Virus record (IMG/VR): IMGVR_UViG_3300010354_000423
Coordinates: 1 to 29,282 of that record
Reading direction: 5' to 3' (one strand)
Origin: a virus
DNA length: 29,282 bases
This document shows positions 28,254 through 29,282 of this stretch, piece after piece. The notes beneath the pieces were generated by a model. The model was not told where the DNA came from and did not search any database. It was given only the letters and a program-made list of their open reading frames with translations. Each line of letters opens with the position of its first letter. Positions within the stretch are counted from its first letter, which is position 1. Position numbers and translations under genes: made by a program.

Positions 28254-28394
28254 TTATTTTGTTACCGCATTATATATCAGAACAATTAAAAACCCAACAG
28301 ATCCTCCGAAGATTGTAAAGCACTGTCGTGGATATCGTACTAACCACCCCGCAAAGACAACCTTCCAAAAATTCCAATAAGGGCGTTTTTTCAT
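28254..28394 (-). CDS. Small membrane protein of unknown function (46 aa)
   Basis: Hand translation gives MKKRPYWNFWKVVFAGWLVR, a short basic stretch, then CFTIFGGSVGFLIVLIYNAV and TK. The second half (about residues 25-44) is a good transmembrane segment, and the first half may be amphipathic or a second short one. The basic N-terminus and the R residues around 20-23 suggest an inner-membrane topology. It is isolated by 32 bp from the next gene and by the repeat-bearing noncoding region upstream. I recall similar small hydrophobic proteins in T4-type cyanophages. Function is unknown; a host-membrane target during early infection is possible. Confidence 0.75.
   Translation of the reverse strand: MKKRPYWNFWKVVFAGWLVRYPRQCFTIFGGSVGFLIVLIYNAVTK
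28269..28297 (-). promoter_or_regulatory. Possible sigma70-like promoter for the 64-aa gene
   Basis: A perfect -10 TATAAT (28274-28269) with a 17-bp spacer to a poor -35, TTGGGT (28297-28292). It lies inside the 46-aa coding sequence, so part of the match may come from the codons for its membrane segment. Confidence 0.35.
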
Positions 28395-28499
28395 TCTATA
28401 AAAGATATTGTGAGGTAATTTTTTTCGGAAAATTTTTTTTATGAACGTGAGAGAGAGGTCGAAAAAGACATACAGTGTAGGTTAGGGACTTATCGATTT

Positions 28500-28778
28500 T
28501 TTATACGGGGCAACGCAAAATATAAACAATAAACAATAAAATAAAATAACTGCTATAACGAATATCAAACTGACCACGAATAAGTATCATTATTCGTTAT
28601 TCTTTATACTAACTGCCCCGATATTGCTGCTTATTAGTAATAAACAATGAAGATCTTTATAGTAATTGCCCCAAAAACTGCGTTATTCTAATAATACAAC
28701 GCAGTTTTTTATAATAACTCTCAACGATTGTGCTACTTATCTAATAAGAACTGTCTATTCTTTATACGAACTGCTGCC
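28500..28778 (-). repeat. Periodic array of TATAAA boxes, each followed by an inverted repeat
   Basis: On the minus strand TATAAA boxes end at 28761, 28708, 28656 and 28603 (spacing 53, 52 and 53 bp), and one more ends at 28500, about twice that distance away. The best copies share GGGGCAGTTAG or GGGGCAATTAC before the box and GA after it. Downstream of each of the four regular boxes lies an inverted repeat: CTTAT/ATAAG at 28736-28748, a 12-bp stem at 28673-28709, TTATTA/TAATAA at 28631-28643, and ACGAATAA/TTATTCGT at 28576-28597. The T4-phage PeSL cassettes (early promoter plus stem-loop, often in tandem) are the closest known analogue, but no good -35 elements are seen. Confidence 0.65.
28673..28709. 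terminator. Terminator-like hairpin, possibly bidirectional
   Basis: A perfect stem built on AACTGCGTT/AACGCAGTT, extended to about 12 bp by flanking A/T pairs, encloses a 13-base loop. A T-run follows the stem on the plus strand (28705-28710) and a shorter one on the minus strand (complement of 28673-28677). It is one unit of the periodic array and could end transcripts from the 57-aa gene upstream. Confidence 0.6.
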
Positions 28779-28936
28779 AATTAACGACGAACAATAATAA
28801 GAATAAAGAATTAAGTTGTCTTGGGAGACATAAACAATTAGACAAAGTAATAAGAATCAACGAAACATCTATCAGACGATGTTGCTTACCGCCGCTGAGA
28901 ATAATACACTTGGAGAGATTTGAATTGTATTATAAA

Positions 28937-29110
28937 CTACCAACGAACTGATAGATCTTCCACATAACTCTTAACGTTTTCATTACGCTCAAGGTTAAAG
29001 AGTTTATTCCAATCAATCTGATGGGGATTAAAATCTTCATTCACGTTTAGTTCTAACGTGATACGATACTTATTCTTTGATGACTGTGCTTTGAGAGAAG
29101 AAGTTGCCAT
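28937..29110 (-). CDS. Small protein of unknown function (57 aa)
   Basis: Hand translation gives MATSSLKAQSSKNKYRITLE, then LNVNEDFNPHQIDWNKLFNL and an ending VEDLSVRW. The N-terminus is serine/lysine-rich and probably flexible. The remainder looks like a small alpha/beta fold with an alternating beta strand (YRITLELNV). I recall similar small proteins in T4-type cyanophages, function unknown. A strong sigma70-like promoter lies about 33 bp upstream, so early expression is likely. The ribosome binding site is weak or absent. Confidence 0.8.
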   Translation of the reverse strand: MATSSLKAQSSKNKYRITLELNVNEDFNPHQIDWNKLFNLERNENVKSYVEDLSVRW

Positions 29111-29142: not shown

Positions 29143-29171
29143 ATTCTACTAGACCTTATCCCGACTGTCAA
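29143..29171 (-). promoter_or_regulatory. Sigma70-like early promoter for the 57-aa gene
   Basis: A consensus -35 TTGACA (29171-29166), a 17-bp spacer and -10 TAGAAT (29148-29143), with an expected start near 29136, about 26 bp before the ATG. The layout matches the promoter ahead of the glycosyltransferase operon. Confidence 0.8.
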
Positions 29172-29183
29172 GTTATTCCCTAC

Positions 29184-29282
29184 AACGAATCTTAATTATA
29201 AACGAATCTTTTCTATTTACAAATTCTCAAGCAATCTTATCAAATTAAATTGCAATACGAATCTTATCTAAACACGAATGAA
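29184..29282. repeat. Interspersed ACGAATCTT repeats upstream of the early promoter
   Basis: ACGAATCTT occurs at 29185, 29202 and 29257, with one-off or shortened copies at 29230 (AGCAATCTT) and 29274 (ACGAAT). The spacings are 17, 28, 27 and 17 bp. All are in the same orientation and sit immediately upstream of the TTGACA of the 57-aa gene's promoter. The array may extend past the window end. No gene overlaps it. Confidence 0.55.

Follow-up and report, generated by a model that had tools for sequence, protein, structure and literature searches.

A phased array of TATAAA boxes upstream of a conserved core at the baseplate locus of T4-like cyanophages: a candidate protein-docking site

What would a short box, repeated four times at a nearly constant period, be doing in the intergenic gap in front of phage baseplate genes? 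The question is raised by a 29,282-bp IMG/VR fragment of a T4-like cyanophage (hereafter the window, meaning the whole stretch analysed), in which an initial annotation made from the letters alone had described TATAAA boxes accompanied by inverted repeats. That annotation had assumed a cyanophage setting, and this was borne out: the long genes on the minus strand had matches to baseplate wedge proteins, a head-tail adaptor, and a ferredoxin-named family, and the window proteins matched those of T4-like phages of Synechococcus and Prochlorococcus. The boxes lie in the gap at 28395-28936, between a 57-residue ORF (28937-29110, minus strand; phrog_12516, unknown function), which is the upstream anchor of the locus, and a 46-residue ORF (MKKRPYWNFWKVVFAGW...; 28254-28394, minus strand), followed in turn by genes of phrog_2626 and phrog_1574 and by the baseplate cluster. 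Near the array, strong promoter matches were limited to a sigma-70-like early promoter upstream of the 57-residue ORF, TTGACA-17-TAGAAT (29171-29143, minus strand; 11 of 12 consensus bases), which contrasts with the boxes. Upstream of this promoter, in the segment at 29183-29282 (minus strand), we noted four GATTCGT/CATTCGT words with 5' ends at 29278, 29261, 29206, and 29189, i.e., two pairs with 17 bp within a pair and ~72 bp between pairs.

Boxes, inverted repeats, and flanking parts in the window

Four minus-strand TATAAA boxes spaced 53, 52, and 53 bp had been reported, and we confirmed them to the base at 28761-28766, 28708-28713, 28656-28661, and 28603-28608. Each belongs to a box of ~15 bp with the consensus CAGTTnGTATAAAgA, all on the minus strand: box 1 is CAGTTCGTATAAAGA (28759-28773), box 2 is GAGTTATTATAAAAA (28706-28720), box 3 is CAATTACTATAAAGA (28654-28668), and box 4, the last and best conserved, is CAGTTAGTATAAAGA (28601-28615). 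A box said to overlap the T-run of a stem could be identified as that of unit 2 (28706-28719). The flanks described as shared held up only in part, as GA follows the box in three of the four cases but GGGGCA precedes it in just two, the others having GCAGCAGTTCG and TGAGAGTTAT. When the intergenic region was shuffled 20,000 times with its dinucleotides preserved, the longest chain of boxes at 52/53 bp was two, and a four-box chain at any period from 30 to 110 bp never appeared; the top autocorrelation peak of the region was at lag 53 (Z 3.4). TRF did not call the array even with a low threshold, because the similarity is limited to ~15 bp per unit.

An inverted repeat after each box, also part of the initial description, was present in all four units, but the arms of two of them were within chance for AT-rich DNA. 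Arms matching the 5 bp of unit 1 (CTTAT-TAG-ATAAG, 28736-28748) were found in 41% of shuffled 42-mers and arms matching the 6 bp of the unit 3 palindrome (TTATTA-C-TAATAA, 28631-28643) in 13%, whereas the longer arms of unit 2 (10-12 bp) and unit 4 (8 bp) were matched in only 0.2% and 1.4%, respectively. The 12-bp inverted repeat of unit 2 (AAAAACTGCGTT / AACGCAGTTTTT, 28673-28709) received no terminator call, and its pairing is not kept in relatives. The last palindrome, ACGAATAA-TGATAC-TTATTCGT (28576-28597), is followed by two more CAGTT words 20 bp apart (28548-28572), the first of them 43 bp past the CAGTT of box 4, and by an AT-rich tract with short tandem repeats (ATTGTTT) and a conserved TTGTTTATAT end (28520-28547); all of these parts are given for the minus strand. 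The T-rich words TTATTCGT, TTCTTTAT, TTGTTTAT, and TTCTTATT were 20- to 150-fold denser in the array gap than in the remaining sequence of the window and of the sister phage G001.

The arms of the last palindrome were invariant in 21 of 21 sequences, which points to strong constraint on the sequence and is uninformative about pairing. Its loop varied: among 18 related loci it was GTATTAG in nine and the exact reverse complement, CTAATAC, in the other nine, with no intermediates. Phages whose other sequence was up to 98.2% identical could still have opposite loop states (L012-L030). On the tree the states require four changes, of which well-supported branches force two. Template switching during DNA replication is reported to leave such loop inversions (PMC8794818), and we take the flip to be a mutational mark of the palindrome and not a function. 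In one locus (L048) the region past the 57-residue homolog has the ACGAATAA/TTATTCGT palindrome, the CAGTT words, the AT tract, and a TATAAAA core with no box array, which suggests that the palindrome module arose before the boxes.

Recurrence of the array and a conserved core downstream

The array recurred in about 40 IMG/VR contigs, which are metagenomic, partly redundant, and non-independent, and it was always located between the phrog_12516 gene and the baseplate cluster. A search with the 57-residue protein identified 54 IMG/VR loci, most of which carry the array downstream on the same strand. An independent scan with the box pattern returned 57 contigs, many identical to those of the protein search; the runs at 53 or 106 bp sat at the array locus, and the few other multiple hits (93-120 bp) were chance-like. 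Within nine contigs of 58-156 kb, clusters of boxes occurred at the array locus only, accompanied by scattered single matches elsewhere, and the reversed pattern gave none. A search of INPHARED with the intergenic region found no match, and the array was absent from the marine relatives examined.

Conservation of the period in relatives had been proposed as a check on the array, and the period is kept. Across 33 loci the box spacings were 52-55 bp (24 cases), 73 bp (three), and 103-107 bp (twelve), or about 5, 7, and 10 helical turns; the middle box is decayed in the 103-107-bp spacings, and some shorter or odd distances came from weak matches. The suggestion that the boxes lie on one face of the DNA holds up. 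The box consensus and orientation are kept while the DNA between boxes has diverged, and the distance from the last box to the core described below is 129-135 bp in all but four of the box-bearing loci (139-154 bp). The CAGTT words were also phased, with an optimum of 10.6 bp in 16 representative loci, which do not amount to 16 independent observations because the loci are homologous. Unit number varied. Close relatives have three units, and the window has a fourth of about 51 bp between the relatives' last two, the unit that holds box 3 and is absent from most close relatives; L040 has five boxes at 53, 53, 73, and 73 bp, with several units near-identical. The extra unit of the window and the units of L040 indicate that units are gained or lost whole, with the spacing still near whole turns.

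A fifth TATAAA, which had been counted with the array at about twice the period, is indeed present at 28500-28505, 103 bp further on, but it belongs to a different conserved element. This core (28476-28507, minus strand), TATAAAAAA followed by AGTCCCTAACCTACA, is conserved in cyanophages, and the 46-residue ORF is the first gene past it in the window. It consists of a G/C run, TATAAAA, and about 11 nt later (C)TACCCTAACCTACA or GTCCCTAACCTACA, with two variants that differ by 2 bp in the spacing after CCTAACCTACA. We also found it at 58821-58892 of GU071095 and in L139-L256, where it is intergenic and apparently unannotated. A 72-nt marine version of the core matched 273 INPHARED records at 274 places, many at marginal E-values and all in records named as cyanophages or marine virus; CCTAACCTACA was in a like position in the three matches we inspected (S-RIM12, ACG-2014d, and S-CAM4). 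Among the 15-mer matches listed, the core was single-copy in all 131 IMG/VR loci examined, and a gene of the expected neighborhood was on the same strand in 123 of these 131. In the same listed loci the genes downstream of the core included phrog_1574 (102 of 131, median 516 bp), gene 25 (104 of 131, 2.6 kb), and gene 6 (98 of 131, about 3.0 kb). The box array accompanied the core in only 17 of the 131 listed loci, a proportion that depends on the contigs returned by the scans, and in S-SM2, SynMITS9220M01, and Bellamy the core occupies this position but no boxes accompany it. As the core is widespread and the boxes are mostly absent, we regard the array as added, in one particular clade, to an element that cyanophages share widely. 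A literature search for the core and box sequences returned unrelated papers only, with no description of the core, although most of the relevant papers were outside its reach.

Directly past the core, tiny and very basic proteins (MSPKRK...HGWGIFGGKHKKKK... and MFTRWIHKNGKSRPDKRCKSCKSQAKANGARKRKKK) substitute for one another. They are the first ORF past the core in L007, L008, L010, L012, L013, L018, and others, and are found also in L006, L017, and L039; they had no Pfam or PHROG match, and the window has no such gene.

Promoter, RNA, duplication, and origin readings

The lead reading of the initial annotation had been that of PeSL-like mobile cassettes. On that reading the units would be early promoters in tandem, each joined to a stem-loop terminator, and recombination would spread them. 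T4-type phages do have cassettes of an early promoter and a stem-loop (cited in PMC4503421), and the array is like them in having tandem intergenic units, gained and lost whole, each combining an AT-rich box with an inverted repeat. Our promoter and terminator scan, however, found no -35 element, no sigma-70 match, and no intrinsic terminator at any box; the stems of units 1 and 2 are broken in relatives; the boxes of the nine long contigs are at one locus and not dispersed; and the real early promoter at 29143-29171 looks quite different. The cassette reading fails on these counts, and we consider it very improbable. We rejected a simple array of early promoters, there being no promoter match at the boxes, and also a CRISPR-like array, since its repeat is short and its "spacers" resemble one another from one related phage to the next. 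The second promoter option of the annotation was an array of late promoters that would make short RNAs, to which we add a boost of the baseplate operon as a conceivable role. This option draws on the one-base difference between TATAAAGA and TATAAATA and on the fact that T4-type late promoters have a TATAAA and need no -35 element; that of cyanophage S-PM2 is NATAAATA (PMC2984593). Yet TATAAATA occurred in none of 63 boxes, which were TATAAAGA in 37 cases, TATAAACA in 14, and other forms in the remainder; base 7 was G (37), C (15), A (8), or T (3), and bases 7-8 were never TA. The late motif of the clade is instead ATAAATA, present in 15 of 28 late gaps of G001 (2.2 expected), where TATAAAG was in 0 of 28. 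Unlike T4-type late promoters, the boxes also have a conserved upstream CAGTTnG and a tandem 53-bp period. The late-promoter option fails as well, and we consider it very improbable.

A structured RNA was weighed in which the array, transcribed from the early promoter, would form a chain of hairpins acting as a leader, a decoy, or processing sites. Ten of ten loci did fold better than their dinucleotide shuffles (sense-strand z -3.1 to -8.3), and the covariation score was above 497 of 500 column shuffles, but the antisense strand of the ten loci was about equally over-folded, with no sense-strand specificity, and the same covariation score was reached when the structure was slid by 3 columns. 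The RNAalifold covariation term was unfavorable (+0.53), no Rfam family was identified (the only matches had E-values of 0.35-4.9, far below gathering scores), and many relatives have disrupted stems in units 1 and 2. Compensatory stem changes, for which the initial annotation had proposed to look, were not demonstrated; doubly changed pairs were no more frequent than in shuffles. We therefore judge an RNA function improbable; equal over-folding of both strands, as seen with DNA palindromes, counts for a binding array. The array might also have no function and be a tandem duplication that replication slippage and template switching maintain, and the near-identical units of L040, the extra unit of the window, and the inverted loops between close relatives would fit such a history. 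Against it, boxes and spacing are conserved despite the diverged sequence between boxes, and the spacings cluster at whole turns, which makes purely neutral upkeep quite improbable.

Replication offers a reading that we consider unlikely, though the likeliest of the alternatives, i.e., an iteron-type origin that would be a functional analog of T4 oriE, with an initiator on the phased repeats, opening of the AT tract, and a primer from a core transcript. The order of the parts (direct repeats, an AT-rich tract with short repeats, and a promoter-like core) resembles that of iteron origins, and the core is single-copy per genome. A single theta origin was predicted for cyanophage Syn9 (PMC2984593). 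T4 oriE has evenly spaced direct repeats, or "iterons" (PMC3016281), as the array does, and it lies a few kb upstream of gene 6 as well: oriE is annotated at 79355 in AF158101, 1.7 kb before gene 6, and the cyanophage core is about 3 kb before that gene. The T4 repeats nevertheless differ from the boxes, being GTTGAAGGTAAT-like and placed every 24 bp inside gene 5, while the cyanophage array is intergenic with a 53-bp period, and no sequence relation between the two was evident. At the locus the GC skew kept its sign in both S-SM2 and G001, although this test is weak where almost all genes point in the same direction. Helix stability was lowered, but not to an extreme, in the window and G001 and was ordinary in S-SM2, and no initiator gene was seen. 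In plasmid and lambdoid origins, classical iterons recur about every 20-22 bp. Such iteron arrays, and the phased activator sites found upstream of promoters, share with this locus direct repeats that are whole numbers of helical turns apart and lie next to a promoter or an AT-rich tract, but the array spacing of 53 or 73 bp sets it apart from classical iterons. It is likewise unlikely that array and core jointly make up the origin of replication in T4-like cyanophages, with the core as a common single-copy start site and the boxes as a clade-specific iteron array.

A candidate docking array for a DNA-binding protein

Judged from its sequence features, the array resembles a previously undescribed docking site for a DNA-binding protein more than it does a row of promoters. 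The initial annotation had mentioned a protein-binding array as an alternative, and this turned out to be the best fit, with a short conserved box, constrained where the DNA around it is not, kept in one orientation at spacings near whole helical turns. Specifically, our tentative preference, held at somewhat less than even confidence, is for a helically phased protein-binding array serving as an upstream control site of a core promoter before the baseplate operon. The boxes would be double-stranded DNA sites, in one orientation and on one helix face, for a sequence-specific and probably phage-encoded protein. They might be assembled into a nucleoprotein array that also takes in the ACGAATAA/TTATTCGT palindrome, the AT-rich tract, and the phased CAGTT words and that keeps almost the same distance upstream of the core TATAAAA-N~11-TACCCTAACCTACA from locus to locus. 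The core in turn may be a promoter and 5' leader opening the phrog_1574/gene 25/gene 6 (baseplate) operon, with the array as its putative enhancer or operator at the border between early small genes and late baseplate genes. We infer from this arrangement that array and core act in cis, and a role in transcription appears more likely than one in replication.

Two observations temper the docking-array reading. The near-identical units of L040 mean that the phasing could be partly inherited from tandem duplication, and since the core mostly occurs in phages that have no array, the array is not essential to the role of the core. No binding protein emerged from the analysis: the 57-residue neighbor had no Pfam match and is also found in marine phages that lack the boxes.

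If the array acts in cis, its geometry implies a dedicated binding protein, probably of phage origin, in an uncultured group of cyanophages, and it sits where the region of small early genes gives way to the late genes of the baseplate. It also leads to a very conserved, apparently unannotated core across T4-like cyanophages, in which late-operon control and the start of replication are both poorly understood. Were array and core together to prove an origin, the undefined replication origin of cyanophages would become directly testable.
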